Assembly: GCA_002449695.1 (NCBI GenBank)
Contig: DJXI01000071.1
Span: forward strand, 21,836-38,520
DNA length: 16,685 nucleotides
From: Verrucomicrobia bacterium UBA7008
GTDB taxonomy: Bacteria > Verrucomicrobiota > Kiritimatiellia > RFP12 > UBA1067
Direction: 5' to 3'
A program made the position numbers and the translations under genes. Of the stretch, positions 9,147 to 16,685 are shown piece after piece. The stretch's first letter is position 1, and every line of letters begins with the position of its first letter. The notes below the pieces were generated by a model. The model was not told the origin of the DNA. It saw only the letters and a list, made by a program, of their open reading frames with translations, and did no database searches.

Positions 9147-9899
9147 TCAGGCGAAGGCCTGTTCGATCGCGGCAGCGAACGCGGCAAGATCGCGCGCGCA
9201 CCCGGCGGCGCGACCGTCGAGCGCGGTTTCCTGCGCATTGACGATGAACACCTGCCCGCCGCGCCGGAGCGTCAGCTGCGGAAGCGCGGCCGCCGGAAAG
9301 ACCGTCAGCGACGTGCCGAGCACGAGCAGCACGTCCGCGCGCGCGGCCAGTTCCTGCGCCTGGCGGAACGCGGCCTCGGGGAGTGCTTCGCCGAAGAACG
9401 TGATGTCCGGCTTGAACGCGCCGCCGCACGCGCAGCGCGGCACGTACGGGTCGCCGAGCGCCGCCGCGCCGCCGTTCGCCGCGATGAGGCGCAGGATCTC
9501 CGCGAACGTCTTTTCGGCGCCGCACCGCCGACAGTGGTGCAGGACGGGCGAGCCGTGCACTTCGTAGACGCGCGACGAGCCCGCCTTCTGGTGGAGCATG
9601 TCGATGTTCTGCGTGATGATCCCGTCGAGGTGGCCCGCGTCCTCGAGCGTCTTCAGCGCGCGGTGCACGGGCCCGGGCGCGAAGTCGCCGAGGCCGTAGA
9701 CGAGTTCGCGGCAGCCGCGGTAGTAGATGGCGGGATCGCGGTCGAACCAGTCGATGTCGAAGATGCGTTCGGCGTCGGGATTGCGGTAGAGCCCCTGCGG
9801 TCCGCGGAAGTCGGGGATGCCGCAGAGCGTGCTCACGCCTGCGCCCGTCAGCGCCGCCGTGCAGGTTGACTTTTTAATCGCTTCAATCAGCTTGTCCAT
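9147..9899 (-). CDS. cobB: Sirtuin (Sir2-family NAD-dependent protein deacylase)
   Basis: This 250-residue protein is a complete class of small bacterial sirtuin. The NAD-binding motif is TGAGVSTLCGIPDFRG (18-33). TQNIDMLH (96-103), the catalytic His115 (YEVHGS) and FGEALP follow, then GTSLTVFPAAALP (195-207) and VNAQET. A structural zinc site is formed by Cys123, Cys126, Cys156 and Cys158; the second pair is spaced Cys-x-Cys rather than Cys-x2-Cys. It removes acyl groups from lysines using NAD. The Ala/Tyr/Arg residues that mark the desuccinylase (SIRT5-like) class are not evident, so a deacetylase is favoured. The start at 9899 follows AAAGGAG (about 9912-9906) with a 6-nt spacer. The gene stands between the 9-mer repeat block and argJ, 47 nt from the latter. 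No promoter hexamers were convincing upstream. Confidence 0.94.
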   Translation of the reverse strand: MDKLIEAIKKSTCTAALTGAGVSTLCGIPDFRGPQGLYRNPDAERIFDIDWFDRDPAIYYRGCRELVYGLGDFAPGPVHRALKTLEDAGHLDGIITQNIDMLHQKAGSSRVYEVHGSPVLHHCRRCGAEKTFAEILRLIAANGGAAALGDPYVPRCACGGAFKPDITFFGEALPEAAFRQAQELAARADVLLVLGTSLTVFPAAALPQLTLRRGGQVFIVNAQETALDGRAAGCARDLAAFAAAIEQAFA

Positions 9900-10140: not shown

Positions 10141-11424
10141 TCAGCCGAGCGCGGCGAGGATTTCGGGCAGGAGCTGCTTCTTGCGCGAGACGACGCCCGG
10201 CATCAGCAGCACGCCGTCCTTGTCGCGGCGGTACGGCAGCGCGCGGCGCACCGATTCCAGCCCGCGGTAGAGCAGCTCCGAACTGCCGCGCACGGGATCG
10301 GTCACCATCAGCATGAAGAAGTCGAGTCCGCCGGCGCGCCGCGCCGCGTCGATCGCCGCCGTCAGCTCCGCGAGATGCGCGTGGAACTGGGCGAGATTCG
10401 TCTCCTCGATCTGCGCGACGACGAACCGCCGCCCGCCCTCGGCGTACGTCTTAGCGTCGCTCTTGATCGCGGCCTCGGCGGACATGCTCGCGAGCGGGCT
10501 GCCGACCGACGCCATCCCCTCGAAGACCGCCTCCGCCGTCTCGCCGCACAGCTTCTCCAGCCACGTGCACATCGCGCGGTCGTCGTCGGTCGTCGTCGGC
10601 GACTGAAAGAGCAGCGTGTCGCTCACGATGCCCGCGATCAGCACGCCCGCCGTCTCGCGCGTCGGCCGCTCGCCGATGGCGCGGAACATCCGCGCGACGA
10701 GCGTGCAGGTCGAGCCCACCACGTCCGCCGTGTAGCGGATCGGCTCCTTCGTCGCCGCGAACGCGATGCGGTGGTGGTCGACGACCTCCACGACCGGCAC
10801 CTCGTCGAGGCCCGGGATGCCCTGCTCCGTCTCGTTGTGGTCGACGAGGATCATCCGGAACGGCGGCTCCTCGGCGAACGCGCGCTTGAGCACGGTGCCC
10901 AGCAGCCGCCCCTGCTCGTCCACGACCGGGAAGTGGTTGTGCGCGTTGCGGATCGTCGCGAGGCGGATGTCGTGCACGGGATCCGATTCGAGCAGCGTCG
11001 CCGCGCAGTGGTGGAGCGGCGCGCGCGCGACGGGGATCGTCAGGTCGCCGCGCGACAGGAAGAGGTTCAGGAGCTTCGCGGGCGAGAGCATGCCGAGGAA
11101 GCGGCCGTCCTTCGCGCGCACCGGAAGCGACGATTCGCCCGACGCCTCCAGCTTGCGCAGCGCGTCCACGAGCGACATGTCCGCGTCGATCATCGGCACG
11201 TGCGCGTCCATCAGGTGGCGCACGCGCACGTAGACGTCGCGCTTGGCGCGCACGGGCGCGAGATGAAAATGGTCGAAGACCCACTTCGCCTTGTCGGGCA
11301 GCCGCCCCGCGCAGATCGCCTCCACGTCCGCCAGCCCCGTGCGGCGGCGCAGGTCGGCGAGCGCGTAGGCGCTCATCACGGAATCGACATCGGGGTTGCG
11401 GTGGCCGCAGACGTATGTTTTCAC
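10141..11424 (-). CDS. Family II (DHH) inorganic pyrophosphatase with CBS-domain insert
   Basis: This 427-residue protein combines DHH and DHHA2 domains with a regulatory insert. Metal-site motifs of family II Mn/Co pyrophosphatases are present: GHRNPDVDS (7-15; His8, Asp12, Asp14), LVDHNE (193-198) and VVDHHR (214-219). GSTCTLV, SDTLLFQSPTTT and the DHHA2 signature SRKKQ near the C-terminus follow. Two CBS motifs occupy about 65-180 (YVRVRHLMDAHVPMIDADMS and LATIRNAHNHFPVVDEQGRL). No DRTGG domain is evident, and the length fits the shorter CBS type. It hydrolyses PPi and is probably controlled by adenine nucleotides through CBS. The start is GTG at 11424, overlapping the radical SAM stop as GTGA; the only purine-rich signal is AAAGG about 8 nt upstream. 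Longer in-frame sequence upstream is a shadow of the radical SAM gene. Confidence 0.92.
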   Translation of the reverse strand: MKTYVCGHRNPDVDSVMSAYALADLRRRTGLADVEAICAGRLPDKAKWVFDHFHLAPVRAKRDVYVRVRHLMDAHVPMIDADMSLVDALRKLEASGESSLPVRAKDGRFLGMLSPAKLLNLFLSRGDLTIPVARAPLHHCAATLLESDPVHDIRLATIRNAHNHFPVVDEQGRLLGTVLKRAFAEEPPFRMILVDHNETEQGIPGLDEVPVVEVVDHHRIAFAATKEPIRYTADVVGSTCTLVARMFRAIGERPTRETAGVLIAGIVSDTLLFQSPTTTDDDRAMCTWLEKLCGETAEAVFEGMASVGSPLASMSAEAAIKSDAKTYAEGGRRFVVAQIEETNLAQFHAHLAELTAAIDAARRAGGLDFFMLMVTDPVRGSSELLYRGLESVRRALPYRRDKDGVLLMPGVVSRKKQLLPEILAALG

Positions 11425-12302
11425 AGGGGGACCTTTCGTTTGGCACCGGGCACGTCGCTGACGAAGCGCGGCAGGGCGAGCCCGCCGATCCGCTCGGCGC
11501 ACGCGCGTTCGATGCGCCGCGCCTTGTCGAGCGGCACGCGGAAGCGGTCGATGCCCGCGACCGGATCGCACGTGAAGACGTAGTAGGGGCGGATGCGCGC
11601 GGCCGTGAGCGCGCGGAAAAGCCGGAGCATCTCGGCCGCCGAATCGTTGACGCCCTTCAGGAGCACCGTCTGGCACGAGACGGGGATGCCCGCGTCGACG
11701 AGCCGCGCGGCGGCGGCGCGGGCCTCGTCCGTCACCTCGTCCGCGCAGTTGAACTGCGTGTTGACCCAGACCTTCTTCGACCGCGCGAGGATCCGCGCGA
11801 GGCGCGCCGTGACGCGCGCCGGATTCGTCGCGAGCGCCCGCGTGCAGACGCGCACGACCTCGACCTGCTCCAGCGCGGCGAACGCGTCGACGAACGCGCG
11901 GACCCGCGCGTCGGGGAGCGTCAGGATGTCGCCGCCCGAGAGGAGCACGTCGCGCACCTGCGGATGCGCCTTCACGTAGGCGACGCACGCCGCGAGCCGC
12001 GCGGGCGTGTCGACGACGGCCGTCCGGCCGAAGAGCCCGCGCCGCGTGCAGTGGCGGCAGTTCATGAAGCAGCGGTCCGTCGTCATCACGAGCACGCGGT
12101 CGGGGAAGCGCTGCTTCAGGCCGGGGCACTTCGCCGCGTGCGTCAGCTCGCCGAACGGGTCGGGGCCGTAGGCCTCCGCCGTCCGCGGCGCTTTCGCCGC
12201 GCCGTCGTAGACCTGGCGCGCGAACCGCTTCGAGCGCGCGGCCAGCCGCCGCGCGTAGTCGCACGCATATTCGGGAAAATCGCAGTCAGCCGTTTTCATC
12301 AT
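11421..12302 (-). CDS. Short KamA/EpmB-type radical SAM lysine 2,3-aminomutase-like protein
   Basis: This 293-residue protein has the radical SAM cluster motif CFMNCRHC (Cys78, Cys82, Cys85), LLSGGD (120-125) and the KamA-family pattern downstream. Residues that hold lysine in KamA appear kept: Asp246 (FTCDPVAGIDRFRVPL) and Asp283 (VSDVPG). The PLP-lysine motif PGGGGK is altered to PGAKRK, with Lys290 in the expected position; the chain ends three residues later. Clostridial KamA is about 416 residues and EpmB about 340, so this copy is short at the N-terminus and lacks the clostridial C-terminal extension. It could make beta-lysine, for example for modification of elongation factor P, but no epmA or efp gene is here. 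The start (12302, or 12299 for the second Met) lies inside the end of the synthase gene, with a 17-nt overlap and no Shine-Dalgarno, so coupling is expected. Confidence 0.85.
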   Translation of the reverse strand: MMKTADCDFPEYACDYARRLAARSKRFARQVYDGAAKAPRTAEAYGPDPFGELTHAAKCPGLKQRFPDRVLVMTTDRCFMNCRHCTRRGLFGRTAVVDTPARLAACVAYVKAHPQVRDVLLSGGDILTLPDARVRAFVDAFAALEQVEVVRVCTRALATNPARVTARLARILARSKKVWVNTQFNCADEVTDEARAAAARLVDAGIPVSCQTVLLKGVNDSAAEMLRLFRALTAARIRPYYVFTCDPVAGIDRFRVPLDKARRIERACAERIGGLALPRFVSDVPGAKRKVPL

Positions 12303-15300
12303 CGTTGAAGAGCGCCGCGGGGATGAGGCAGAACGCGAGCGCGTGTTCGCGCATCACGCGCGTCGACACCTCGATGTCGCGGCCCTTGAAATTCTTGAAC
12401 GCCTGCACCCAGCCGCCGTCGAGCCGCACGACGAGCCGGCCGGTGTCGGCGCGGTAGCCGGTCACGTTCAGTTCGCGCGGTGAATAGCGGATGCCCGTGC
12501 CGAGCGCCTTCGACACCGCCTCCTTCGCGCACCAGAAGCGGATGATCGCCTGCGGCGGGTTCGACGACTCGGTCGCGAGCGCGAGCTCGTCCGGCGTGAA
12601 GACGCCGCGCGTGAACTCCTCGGACAGGTCGCGCGTGATCGACTCCACGTCCACGCCGACGCGCGCGTTCGCCGCCGCGACCGCGATGACGAACTGCGCC
12701 GTGTGGGCGATGGCGATGTCGAACTTCGTCGTCAGGTACTTCGACCAGTCGCCGATGGCGATGGGCTTGCCCATCTCGTTCGGCCAGATCTGGACGTCCG
12801 CGTAGCTCCAGCGCGCCTGGTAGTAGTCCTTCAGGTAGCGGCGCACGGCCTCCTTCGCCGCGATGCGCCCGTACAGCCACTCGGTGCGCCGCGACGTCGA
12901 GCCGCTCATGCCGAGGAACTCCTTGCGCTCGGGCGAGCTGAGGATGACGTTGCTGAGGATCTTGAGCCAGAACTCCTCGTTGCGCTCGAAGAGCGCGTAG
13001 GGCACGTCCGTGACGAACGCGCTCGCCACGTCGGTCGCGGGGTCGCCCAGCATCGCGCGCGAGACGCTTTCGGTGAGGAACTTCGTCGCCGGCTGGAGCA
13101 CGACCTCGCAGAGCGACTGCGGCACGCGCTCGGTGATCTCCTCCCAGCCGCCGATCTCGAGGATCTCGTTGCCGTCGCCGCCCGTCACCGTGATGTCGCA
13201 GATGTGCGACTTCGGCGTCACGCCCGTCAGGCGCAGGTAGCAGTTGAGCCGCGCGCCCTCCTTCGGCGCGGGCCCCTTCAGCGCGAGCCGGCGCAGGCGG
13301 CACGGGAACGAGAACGCGCCCGGGAAGCGCTCGTGGCTGCGCCACAGCAGGAAGCCGCTGACGATCGTCTGGAGCAGAAGCGGGTTGATCGCCCAGAGCG
13401 GGAAGCGCGTGTAGCCGACGCTGCCCGCGAGCGGCGGCACGGCCACGGCGTAGTCGAGCCCGCCCTCGCCCCACGTCTCGGCGAACGTGATGCCCCTGAG
13501 CCGCCGCCCGAAGCCGATCTTCGCGGGATAGATGTCGCGGCCCGACCAGTGCACGGAGCGCGGCCGCGTGAGCGGGTCGATCCGCGCCGGGACCGGCTCG
13601 GGCGTCTCGGTCGAGAGGAGCACCGTCGCCTCCATCACCGGCCACGTGTAGGCGGCGTTCGGCGAATCGTCGCGGATCTGCACCTTGACGGCGGCGGCCT
13701 GCGCGCCGGCGGCCGCCACGCGCTCGGCCTTGATGAAGACCGTCAGCTTCCCCTTCGTGAACGCGACGAGGCGGCGGCAGACGAAATCCTCGATCGCGAC
13801 GAGGCGGCGGTTGGGCATGAGGCGCATCGCCGTCTCCGCCATCAGCTCCGCGCCGACGGGGATCGACAGGAGCACCAGCCCGCGCAGGTTCGGATCGGAA
13901 TAGGACAGCTGGCTCGCGCCGTAGGCGGCGTCGGCGAGGAACGGCGCGGCGTTCAGCGTCAGCGTCTTCTCGAGCTCGCAGGAGACGCCGGGGCTGGACG
14001 CGATCTCGTCCGCGTCGGAGATGAGCGGATAGGCCGCGCCGAAATCGAACTGCTGGTGGCGGCGCTTCTGCTCCGCGATCACCGCCGCGCGCTGGGCCGC
14101 CTTGCCGCCGCGCACGCGCGGCTCCTGCGCGAGATACGCCGTGCCCGGCACCGTCGCGTCGTCCCCGAGGAGCGTCAGCTTCGGGAAGGTGCGCGACAGG
14201 CGCATCTCCACCTCCTCGCGCACCTGGAGCGCGATCGCCGCGTCGAAATCGAGCTTCCGCGCGCCGCGCCGCGCGTAGCCGGGCGAGATCGAGACCGCCG
14301 CGCCCAGCGCGATCAGCTGGGCGAAGCCGTGCTGCACCTGCAGCATCCCGCGCCGGTGGATCGAGTTGAGCGCGATCGCCGCGTGCGCGTCCTCGCCGAG
14401 GATGTCGGCGATGGCGGACGTCATCAGCCCGCGCGGGCCGACCTCGAGGAAGACGCGGTAGCCGTCGGCGTACATCTGGCGAATCGTCTCGGCGAAGCGG
14501 ATCGGCGTCGCCCAGCGCTCGGCCGTGTCGCTGCGCGCGTGACGCGGCTTGCGCGAGAGGAGCGCGGCCGTGCGGCACGAATAGACGTCGCAGACGGGCT
14601 CGCTCTTCAGCCAGCGGTCGGCGAACTTGCGCACGGCCGGCACCATCTTCGCGGCGAGCGGCGTGTTGAACGGCCGGTCGAGCGGATTCTTGACCGCGCG
14701 GATGCCCGCGCTCGCGAACGCCGCGAGCGCCGACTCCTCGAAGTCGGGCGTGACGACGTACGTCTTCTGGCGCGGCGACAGGTCCATCGCCAGCGTCACC
14801 CTGCCCTTCGGGAACGACGCGATCACCGCGTCCGCCTCGCCCTCGTGGCGCAGGAGGATCGACACGAGCGCCGTCTTCGGCAGCCCCTCGTGGTCCACCG
14901 CCTTGTCGACGATGCGGTAGATGTCGCCGATGATCTTCACGCGGTCGGGGCGCGGGATCGCCGCGCCCGCCGCGCCCGCGCGCATCATCGCCGCGAGGTC
15001 GCCGCCCGCGCAGCCGACGACGCCGTCGGGCGCCAGGCCCTGCGCCTTGACGAGCCGCGCGAGCGCCGCGCTCGCGGCGTAGGTCGCGACGAGCGCCTGC
15101 GCGTACGCGCCCGAGCTGAAGATGTCCGCGTCGTGGCGGTAGTAGGACGCGGGCGGAAAGACGAAGTTGGACGGCGTGAACGCGTCGACGTCCGCCAGCG
15201 CCTCCTCGAGCTCGTCGAAGGCGGTGCGGCATTCGGGATGGAGGATCGCCAGGTCGCGCATCATGTCGGGGTAGAACGACGGCACGCCGGGGAAGACGAA

Positions 15301-15630
15301 CGCGAGGCGGCCGCGCCCCGGGCCGAGGAGCGGTTCGCGGAAGTAGTACGTGCCGCTCTTGTCCTTGAGGCGCCGGAGGCTGCCCGGCGCGAGCCGGTCC
15401 GCCGCGCTCGCGAGGCGCGCGCGCAGGTCGTGGACGTCGCTCGCGATGAGGCAGAGCCGGGCCGCGCCCGCCGCGAGGCTGCACGTGTAGGCGATGTCGA
15501 CGAGCGCCACGTTGCTGACGCGGTCGATGAACGCGACGAGACGGCGGCACTCCGCGACGAGCGCCGCCTCGTCCGGCGCGGAGACGACGACGAGCTCGGT
15601 GCCGGTCGATTCGGAAAATTCCGGCGTCAT
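12286..15630 (-). CDS. Synthase subunit: degenerate AT-like and DH-like domains fused to an intact phosphopantetheinyl transferase
   Basis: This protein has 1114 residues. Residues 1-100 resemble the KS-AT linker. 108-415 are an acyltransferase fold (RLAFVFPGVPSFYPDMMRDL, FLEVGPRGLMTSAIADIL), but GHSxGE is replaced by GCAGGD (206-211) and the second catalytic His by Asn322 (RPFNTP). About 550-850 form a polyketide-synthase-type double hotdog dehydratase (LSYSDPNLRGLVLLSIPVGA), with Ala568 where the catalytic His belongs and no Asp at LLLQ (751-754). About 905-1105 are a phosphopantetheinyl transferase with His976, VGVDVES (Asp994, Glu996), FTPDEL (Glu1015) and RFWCAKEAVSKALG (Trp1033, Lys1036, Glu1037), all intact. 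I saw no acyl-carrier motif. The start is firm: GGAGGT 6 nt upstream and an ATGA overlap with the KS-like gene. The frame is unbroken with codon use like the neighbours. The architecture resembles Pfa/heterocyst-glycolipid-type synthases; the product is unknown. Confidence 0.85.
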   Translation of the reverse strand: MTPEFSESTGTELVVVSAPDEAALVAECRRLVAFIDRVSNVALVDIAYTCSLAAGAARLCLIASDVHDLRARLASAADRLAPGSLRRLKDKSGTYYFREPLLGPGRGRLAFVFPGVPSFYPDMMRDLAILHPECRTAFDELEEALADVDAFTPSNFVFPPASYYRHDADIFSSGAYAQALVATYAASAALARLVKAQGLAPDGVVGCAGGDLAAMMRAGAAGAAIPRPDRVKIIGDIYRIVDKAVDHEGLPKTALVSILLRHEGEADAVIASFPKGRVTLAMDLSPRQKTYVVTPDFEESALAAFASAGIRAVKNPLDRPFNTPLAAKMVPAVRKFADRWLKSEPVCDVYSCRTAALLSRKPRHARSDTAERWATPIRFAETIRQMYADGYRVFLEVGPRGLMTSAIADILGEDAHAAIALNSIHRRGMLQVQHGFAQLIALGAAVSISPGYARRGARKLDFDAAIALQVREEVEMRLSRTFPKLTLLGDDATVPGTAYLAQEPRVRGGKAAQRAAVIAEQKRRHQQFDFGAAYPLISDADEIASSPGVSCELEKTLTLNAAPFLADAAYGASQLSYSDPNLRGLVLLSIPVGAELMAETAMRLMPNRRLVAIEDFVCRRLVAFTKGKLTVFIKAERVAAAGAQAAAVKVQIRDDSPNAAYTWPVMEATVLLSTETPEPVPARIDPLTRPRSVHWSGRDIYPAKIGFGRRLRGITFAETWGEGGLDYAVAVPPLAGSVGYTRFPLWAINPLLLQTIVSGFLLWRSHERFPGAFSFPCRLRRLALKGPAPKEGARLNCYLRLTGVTPKSHICDITVTGGDGNEILEIGGWEEITERVPQSLCEVVLQPATKFLTESVSRAMLGDPATDVASAFVTDVPYALFERNEEFWLKILSNVILSSPERKEFLGMSGSTSRRTEWLYGRIAAKEAVRRYLKDYYQARWSYADVQIWPNEMGKPIAIGDWSKYLTTKFDIAIAHTAQFVIAVAAANARVGVDVESITRDLSEEFTRGVFTPDELALATESSNPPQAIIRFWCAKEAVSKALGTGIRYSPRELNVTGYRADTGRLVVRLDGGWVQAFKNFKGRDIEVSTRVMREHALAFCLIPAALFNDDENG

Positions 15631-16685
15631 GTGCGCACCTCCGGCTCCTCTTCGAGGACGAGCACCGCGCTGCGCCCGCCGCGGCTCGTGATGCCGATGG
15701 GATTGTACGGGTCGAAGTTCGCGCCCGTCACCGCCGCGCGGCGGGGGCGCGCGCTGTCGCCCGTGATCCACGGCCGCGCCTCCGTCAGCAGATACGCGCT
15801 CGAGCCGAGGTTGGCGATCGCCTCCAGCGGCTGTTCGGGCGCGACCTGCGGCGGCAGCACGCGGTAGCGCAGCGCGAGCGCGGCCTTGACGACGCCCGCC
15901 GCCATCGACGCGCGGAACGTGTGGCCGATGTTGCCCTTCACGGAGCCGACGCCGACGAGCGGGCCGCCGGGGCGGTGCTCGCCCCACAGCGCCTGGATCG
16001 CCTGCACCTCGCGCGCCTCCATCGCCTTGACGCCGCTGCCGTCCGCCTCGATGAGGCCGATGGACTTCACGGGGATGCCGCGCGCCTCCGTCGCCGCGCG
16101 GAAGATGGCCGACGGGTCGCCCTCGGGGTTGTGGCCGATCTCGATGGAGCGGATGAGCGCATAGATCTTGTCGTGGTCGCGCAGGGCGTCCTCGCGCCGC
16201 TTGAGGACGAAGAAGGCGCCGCCCTCGCCGGGGATCGTGCCCGACGACTCCTCCGCGAACGGATGCAGCTCGGTGCGCGTCGAAAAGTCGATCTCGCCCG
16301 ACAGCCCCTCCAGGTACGAGCGGCTCAGGGGCGGCGTGAGCGAGCCCGCGAGCGCGACGTCGGCCGTGCCGCCGCGCAGGTCGCCGATCGCGTCGAGCAG
16401 GGCGGCCGCGGCGGTGAGGTTGCCCGCGTCCATGACCGTCGCCGTGCCCGCGAACGAGCATTCGCGCGCGATCCACGACACGAAGCGGTAGCCCGAGCCG
16501 AGCAGGAACGACGCCGCGTTCGGCGCGGGCAGCGACTCGACGAGCTTCTTCCGCACGCCGTCGAGCGCCTCGTTCGGGGCCTTGGGCATGAAGCGGCGGA
16601 TGATGTCCATCGTCTGGTCGAGGAAGGCGGTGTGCTGGAGCCAGTTGATCGTCGACGCGTTGAACGGCGGCGCGTAGCCGAAGCG
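15627..16685 (-). CDS. Ketosynthase-like subunit lacking the catalytic Cys (partial; N-terminus outside the window)
   Basis: 352 residues are visible and the frame is still open at the right edge (RFGYAPPFNASTINWLQHTA before the Met at 16610). The fold is a Pfa-type condensing domain: WIARECSFAGTATVMDAGN, GGTADVALAGS, HPFAEESSGTIPGEGGAFFVLKR, LIEADGSG, GVGSVKGNIGHTFRASMAAG, VLPPQ, and a C-terminal VLVLEEEPEV. Ungapped alignment of VMDAGN to VDAACA/VDTACS puts Asn (codon 16421-16419) at the nucleophile. EAHGTG reads EADGSG (Asp, codon 16043-16041), while the NIGH His (15923-15921) is kept. It is therefore probably a chain-length-factor-like (KS-beta) domain, perhaps following an active KS in the part not seen. 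It overlaps the AT/DH/PPTase gene by ATGA, so the two are made together. Confidence 0.85.
   Translation of the reverse strand, partial: RFGYAPPFNASTINWLQHTAFLDQTMDIIRRFMPKAPNEALDGVRKKLVESLPAPNAASFLLGSGYRFVSWIARECSFAGTATVMDAGNLTAAAALLDAIGDLRGGTADVALAGSLTPPLSRSYLEGLSGEIDFSTRTELHPFAEESSGTIPGEGGAFFVLKRREDALRDHDKIYALIRSIEIGHNPEGDPSAIFRAATEARGIPVKSIGLIEADGSGVKAMEAREVQAIQALWGEHRPGGPLVGVGSVKGNIGHTFRASMAAGVVKAALALRYRVLPPQVAPEQPLEAIANLGSSAYLLTEARPWITGDSARPRRAAVTGANFDPYNPIGITSRGGRSAVLVLEEEPEVRT

Follow-up and report, generated by a model that had tools for sequence, protein, structure and literature searches.

We consider it probable that a former KS / AT-DH-PPTase synthase lost its biosynthetic residues step by step and yet, since the PPTase built into it took over as the sole PPTase of the genome, became a core system of two proteins. 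The strongest fact behind this reading is invisible from the window alone (the window being the whole stretch of DNA analysed, 16,685 nucleotides): the PPTase encoded here is the only one found in the genome. The window corresponds to positions 21836–38520 of contig C35 within a 2.52-Mb assembly that is 81.85% complete. It carries a KS-like gene and a gene for a 1,114-aa AT-DH-PPTase protein, both on the minus strand, and the preliminary description was right that these are two coupled genes with unbroken frames and a good Shine-Dalgarno context: both frames are open, the genes overlap by 4 nt (ATGA, 15630–15627), as in the majority of loci having both, and GGAGG precedes the start of the second gene. 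Residue positions in the following features were assigned by alignment to an intact homologue, L065.

15627–16685, minus strand: KS-like gene, thiolase-fold ketosynthase; 352 of about 467 codons, the 5' end cut by a scaffold gap
16419–16421, minus strand: KS catalytic Cys position, now Asn (P0001 residue 89)
16041–16043, minus strand: KS first His position, now Asp (P0001 residue 215)
15921–15923, minus strand: KS second His (NIGH), kept
12286–15630, minus strand: 1,114-aa gene comprising a KS-AT linker, an AT-like domain, a helical linker, a DH-like double hot-dog and an Sfp-type PPTase
14356–15312, minus strand: AT-like domain, from Pfam and AF2/Foldseek
15007–15009, minus strand: AT catalytic Ser position, now Ala (P0002 residue 214; GCAGGD for GHSxGE)
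14665–14667, minus strand: AT catalytic His position, now Asn (P0002 residue 328)
13099–14028, minus strand: DH-like domain, borders approximate, from a PS-DH match below cut-off and the predicted structure
13927–13929, minus strand: DH catalytic His position, now Ala (P0002 residue 574)
13369–13371, minus strand: DH catalytic Asp position, now Gln (P0002 residue 760)
12307–13029, minus strand: Sfp-type PPTase, two AcpS-like halves, borders approximate; Asp-Glu-Glu, Lys and Trp intact
11421–12302, minus strand: KamA/EpmB-like radical SAM gene, 293 aa, overlapping the end of the PPTase gene

The N- and C-terminal KS domains of Pfam were both matched on the KS-like protein (P0001), of which about 115 N-terminal residues fall outside the window. 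The contig ends 181 bases beyond the window in a scaffold gap, seen as N letters with one and the same sequence on either side, so the missing N terminus is an assembly matter, and the proposed extension of the contig yielded only these 181 bases. A full-length KS, P0125, is near-identical in appearance to the window KS over the overlap. On the long protein (P0002, printed with six residues ahead of its Met, which is residue 7), Pfam placed the AT and ACPS (PPTase) domains above cut-off and PS-DH at 20.4 bits against a cut-off of 23.7; no ACP domain was found in the chain with Pfam.

All seven KS, AT and DH residues are present in L065, and the window codons were rechecked against the alignment. 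The residues of a functional type I PKS are KS Cys-His-His, AT Ser-His and DH His-Asp; the corresponding residues here are N/D/H, A/N and A/Q, and no ACP was found in the chain or adjoining it. The residue assignments of the preliminary description were therefore not shifted, and its changes of KS Cys to Asn, AT Ser to Ala, AT His to Asn and DH His to Ala hold. Its change of KS His to Asp applies to the first His and not to the second, so one KS His is gone; its five changes are right, and a sixth, DH Asp to Gln, had been overlooked. The PPTase was correctly described as intact: Asp, Glu, Trp, Glu and Lys are all present, together with the Sfp-type marks of two AcpS-like halves, Asp-x-Glu and a W-x-x-K-E motif. 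Two acpS stretches occur in many of the fused proteins, the own one included. By sequence, the KS, AT and DH sites are dead and the PPTase site is intact.

An AF2 model of the long protein, made from the alignment, had a mean pLDDT of 82.5 and a pTM of 0.54. Foldseek aligned it to the KS-AT didomains 2hg4, 7s6b and 4mz0 at about 4.6–6 Å rmsd over about 460–480 columns; its top-ranked matches were KS-AT-DH synthases over about 850–1000 columns at 30–48 Å, a deviation that would be expected if the domains are placed differently. The KS was modelled on L020, which is 76% identical to the part in the window, and this model was weaker (pLDDT 71, pTM 0.75; Foldseek rmsd 8–11 Å, TMq about 0.6), the best 50 matches listed being ketosynthase-fold entries. 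The models suggest that the folds of KS, AT and DH have been retained.

The changes extend far beyond this genome. A protein search gave 498 homologues at E ≤0.001 among 7988 scored candidates, and the best 120 of the 498 were full length at 63–97% identity. The residue table for family f1 holds 64 rows (51 with KS), with the different PKS L071 left out; some genomes occur twice (for example, L028/L098, L031/L090, L033/L105 and L029/L049), so that counts of loci or pairs do not equal independent genomes. The AT Ser site reads A41 S12 V6 G4 and the AT His site N62 D1; the DH His site reads F40 Y16 plus others, the DH Asp site E21 Q14 D8 G7 A6 H5 plus others, and the KS-Cys site, in the 51 rows with KS, M17 L10 I7 N4 A4 V3 G3 T2 C1. 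Each of the five PPTase residues (D, E, W, K, E) is present in 63/63 rows with sequence there, one row being short. The clade alignment that the preliminary description had suggested shows the substitutions to be clade-wide in f1, and the pattern that would have spoken for a private change, intact homologues in the same clade with only this copy altered, was not seen. The residue losses are thus shared by a family of Kiritimatiellia and are not private decay.

Relatives from outside the order are intact at the sites that could be read, and partial intermediates are found inside it. In a wider search, 955 of 7995 scored candidates matched; among the best 120 of the 955, 103 have all four AT/DH residues, and the 17 that do not are proteins of 1096–1113 aa, the form seen in this order. 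Relatives with KS-AT-(ACP)-DH-PPTase on a single chain, about 1600–1900 aa long, are frequent among the same best 120, and the PPTase motif is changed or missing in some relatives with AT and DH intact. The outside-order loci L065, L066, L110, L111 and L127 are intact at the sites covered (AT only in L111, without the PPTase in L110, without the KS in L066). A survey of the phylum, with two candidates scored per genome and 51 of 288 genome rows listed, so that misses are possible, found matches in at least 31 of the 288 genomes; among the matches listed, 27 are in f1–f3 and 4 elsewhere. In the tree, f46 and f3 keep the AT and have lost the KS Cys and DH His; f2 and f1 follow, sharing the change of AT His to Asn, and AT Ser, KS His1 and DH Asp are then lost within f1. 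Family f2 lost AT Ser and KS His1 independently, f47, which has partial losses of its own, falls with the outside rows when the tree is rooted at the midpoint, and one f1 row (L081) still has the KS Cys. This order, the independent losses in f2 and f47 and the state of L081 suggest that the losses were stepwise and partly parallel. Two KS genes are useful intermediates: that of L081 (G265) retains Cys-His-His beside a partner that lost AT His and DH His, and that of L074 (G159, f47) retains Cys-His-His beside a partner that lost AT Ser, DH His and DH Asp.

Across the clade, the domain bodies behave differently from their active sites. For close pairs (34 pairs, 80–99.5% identical), dN/dS was mostly 0.03–0.2 in KS, AT, DH and PPTase, and higher in few pairs, chiefly in f2: L056/L057 gave 0.51 in DH, about 0.6 in the PPTase parts and 0.75 in the AT-DH linker, and L058 gave 0.28 in DH against L053 or L063. 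Within f1, the KS-AT linker reached 0.28, and the PPTase reached 0.26 in one very close pair. Once near-duplicate rows had been removed (leaving 51 AT-DH-PPTase and 42 KS rows), mean pairwise identity was 60.4% for KS, 63.0 and 62.1% for the PPTase parts, 53.3% for AT and 54.5% for DH, and 50.6% and 47.5% for the KS-AT and AT-DH linkers. These values point to purifying selection on the domain bodies with the active sites released.

The KS gene was found in 52/58 genomes of the genus, whose mean completeness is 80%, and in 10/10 of the good ones. It is present but unlinked, on another contig, in three genomes of the genus (G213, G215, G225) and one of another genus (G187), where the 3.1–4.8 kb upstream of the PPTase gene lack a KS. 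G185, G163, G250, G261, G235 and others also have the KS on another contig and were left out of this count because a contig break may intervene. G192 (90% complete) yielded no dedicated KS, and the 4.0 kb upstream of its PPTase gene lack one as well. Overall, this distribution suggests that the KS gene is also needed, and the clade-wide changes, the purifying selection and a KS kept when non-adjacent bear out the earlier proposal of selection for a non-canonical role.

The same data weigh on the idea that KS, AT and DH are a decaying PKS dragged along by an essential PPTase. This idea was already disfavoured, and we regard it as unlikely: drifting active-site columns, stepwise losses that occurred more than once and the f2 pairs with higher dN/dS are what it would lead one to see, but the best 120 of the 498 homologues are full length, f1 pairs mostly keep dN/dS within 0.03–0.2 in KS, AT and DH, and the separate KS gene is retained even when it is not adjacent.

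An equally improbable alternative is that different residues at the former active sites, such as the KS Asp/His pair or the AT Asn, let the complex carry out a new chemistry, a role that the preliminary description had entertained. Column variability was assessed after rows more than 98% alike and AT-DH-PPTase rows of 900 residues or fewer had been removed, which kept 51 AT-DH-PPTase and 42 KS rows. Some sites are close to fixed in this set, as new chemistry would have it: the AT His position is Asn in 50/51, the KS second His is kept in 40/42 and the KS first-His position is Asp in 33/42. However, variability at the KS-Cys column exceeds that of 96% of KS columns, and at the DH-Asp column that of 89% of DH columns, a drift that argues against new catalysis, and neither the Cys nor the Ser site has a nucleophile shared across the clade. 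The near-fixed Asn, Asp and second His may leave room for a binding role. Nor did the flanks provide the second, active KS/AT or the ACP repeats for which the preliminary description had proposed to look upstream: across 89 loci (1.09 Mb; the flanks differ in length and many are short), a search at E 1e-5 gave no second KS or AT stretch, and no ACP gene was detected near 88/89 loci with the five carriers of the own genome as queries, a sensitivity at which very different ACPs could be missed. The exception is L027, in which a free ACP-like gene (L027:4796–4990) lies downstream of the shell genes and is 55% identical to the 'WDSLTAFA' carrier of the own genome on contig C84. No AT other than FabD was found in the own genome (82% complete).

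Still less probable is that the KS-like subunit acts as a CLF-like chain-length or partner subunit for FabF or another active KS, the PPTase being incidental. CLF subunits likewise have no KS Cys, and an active FabF and further KS genes are encoded in the own genome; however, the partner to which the KS is coupled in most loci is the AT-DH-PPTase gene and not FabF, and the retention of AT and DH would be left unexplained. Gln at the Cys position is typical of CLF/KSQ proteins and occurs in 0/42 f1 rows, and a KSQ/CLF pseudo-ketosynthase was rejected on this count.

The PPTase itself was traced with PF01648. In the own genome, the fused domain is the one match over cut-off; a weak match on C31 (E 0.106) was below cut-off and uncounted, and in our reading that stretch also holds an IspH-like frame. 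Carrier proteins are encoded in the same genome, AcpP (with a DSLD site) and four more, as are intact FabD and FabF. Free carrier proteins such as AcpP require a PPTase, and therefore one is required here. We extended the census to 161 genomes of the order, taking a match as fused when its frame was 850 aa or longer; all are assemblies, many of them incomplete. In f1 (114 genomes), 94 have a single match in such a frame, 7 a single match in a shorter frame, 3 multiple matches and 10 none; a PPTase match is thus present in 104/114 against a mean completeness of 82%, which is as frequent as assembly completeness allows. The match is single and fused in 16/17 f2 genomes, with none in the other, and in 3/3 of f3. 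In f47, two are long, two short, one multiple and one without a match, and the two f46 genomes (G146, G147) carry fused plus separate PPTases and part-dead synthases. Among f1–f3 genomes at least 90% complete, 39/42 have a single fused match, 2 (G098 and G265) have a second match and one, G194, which is 8% contaminated, has none. Further matches are few: a second, weak one over cut-off in G098, on a contig that also carries another large KS-bearing frame; one below cut-off in G265; and one further unlisted match each in G207 and G163. In most genomes of the clade, therefore, no PPTase other than the fused one was found.

A canonical AcpS elsewhere was rejected, TIGR00516 having given no match over cut-off in 53 genomes of the order (the own genome and 52 at ≥90% completeness), although this model passes its cut-off in just 5/14 control genomes. 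In f1–f3 and f47, almost all of its weak matches fall within the fused domain, and five sub-cut-off matches lie outside the fused protein in f1–f2, the best at E 0.008 in G155. That a canonical AcpS or other PPTase was missed, leaving the fused one a side enzyme, is very improbable even with draft assemblies and so insensitive a model, since PF01648 matches 98/100 good genomes of the class, mostly in short frames outside the f1–f3-type families, and the fused match is single in nearly all the well-assembled f1–f3 genomes.

Our preferred reading is that of a synthase turned PPTase carrier. An ancestral KS / AT-DH-PPTase synthase would have lost its biosynthetic residues step by step, while its integrated PPTase would have taken over as the only, housekeeping PPTase of the genome. 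The loss of the other PPTase may have locked the fused one in; two genomes outside the order with AT and DH intact, G027 and G059, have a separate second PPTase and fit this idea, although they are few. We infer that the PPTase would act in trans, transferring 4'-phosphopantetheine to the free carrier proteins, AcpP included. With less certainty, the KS-like protein and the AT/DH-like arms would persist without catalysis as a scaffold, probably a dimer, on which the PPTase is held and the carriers dock. PPTase function in general does not depend on such a shell, because in f4 the PPTase stands alone, and no dead synthase shell was found in 12 f4 genomes searched. The f4 census gave 15 single matches in frames below 850 aa and 4 genomes with none; the f4 match is weak, and this shorter, stand-alone PPTase may have replaced the fused enzyme or may have been released from the shell. 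More speculatively, the carrier-protein activation of the whole lineage, and hence its lipid synthesis, might depend on a two-subunit dead PKS whose empty KS, AT and DH pockets bind acyl- or malonyl-carriers without turnover and present apo-ACP to the PPTase or gate it, a carrier-protein hub that we put forward only tentatively.

Comparison with known systems places the whole protein nearest to type I KS-AT-(ACP)-DH-PPTase synthases of about 1600–1900 aa in one chain, such as a 'Beta-ketoacyl synthase' of Solibacter usitatus (P0351), with which it shares the AT-DH-PPTase order. In those proteins AT and DH are intact, the KS is often in the same chain and an ACP is often present, whereas here the system is split in two, without ACP and with dead sites. 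The earlier label 'Pfa-like' is thus not supported: PfaA/PfaC PUFA synthases and KSQ/CLF pseudo-KS share similarity in KS sequence, but the Cys site has no Gln here and the Pfa models fall far below cut-off (TIGR02813, 136.6 bits for the KS part and 83.9 for the AT part against 1010.1; TIGR02816, 16 against 144.3), these models being built for longer proteins and the window KS being cut. A Pfa synthase was rejected. The group III PPTases integrated in fungal FAS and in certain PKS, the enediyne PKSE included, are likewise synthase domains. The present PPTase resembles group III in being a domain of a FAS/PKS-type chain, but its own peptide carries no ACP for it to modify, and the search of the genome turned up no further PPTase. 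A passage of PMC4103896 states that group III integrated PPTases modify ACPs in the same peptide and that few bacteria live with one group II PPTase. The single broad-spectrum Sfp-type PPTases of Legionella and Pseudomonas offer the other likeness, one Sfp-type enzyme. For Legionella, a single Sfp-like PPTase and no AcpS are described in a passage of PMC5126622, and as far as that passage goes the Legionella and Pseudomonas enzymes are of ordinary size, whereas here the PPTase belongs to a large fused protein. No integrated PPTase without an ACP in its chain, in a dead synthase and as the only PPTase, was described in the open-licence literature searched. Single Sfp-type PPTases such as those of Legionella and Pseudomonas are not known to belong to a synthase.

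A synthase of patchy occurrence elsewhere apparently became a core gene by capturing an essential function, with intermediates readable in living relatives, and the fold of its KS, AT and DH domains has been separated from their chemistry under measurable purifying selection. Dead PKS domains as ACP-docking scaffolds are now a testable proposition. For these genes of gut Kiritimatiellia, labels such as 'polyketide synthase' mislead and conceal a probably essential enzyme.

The KamA/EpmB-like gene was considered as a constant third component and rejected: a relative lies directly downstream of the AT-DH-PPTase gene in 31/81 loci only, with 0/13 in f1 loci assigned to other genera and none in f2, f3, f46, f47 and outside loci, some of which have less than 1 kb of flank. 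The protein itself scores below the cut-offs of the models matched. Next after this gene, in the same direction, positions 10141–11424 (minus strand) encode a 427-aa Mn-dependent inorganic diphosphatase-like protein, and positions 9150–9899 (minus strand) hold a gene for a Sir2/CobB-type deacylase.
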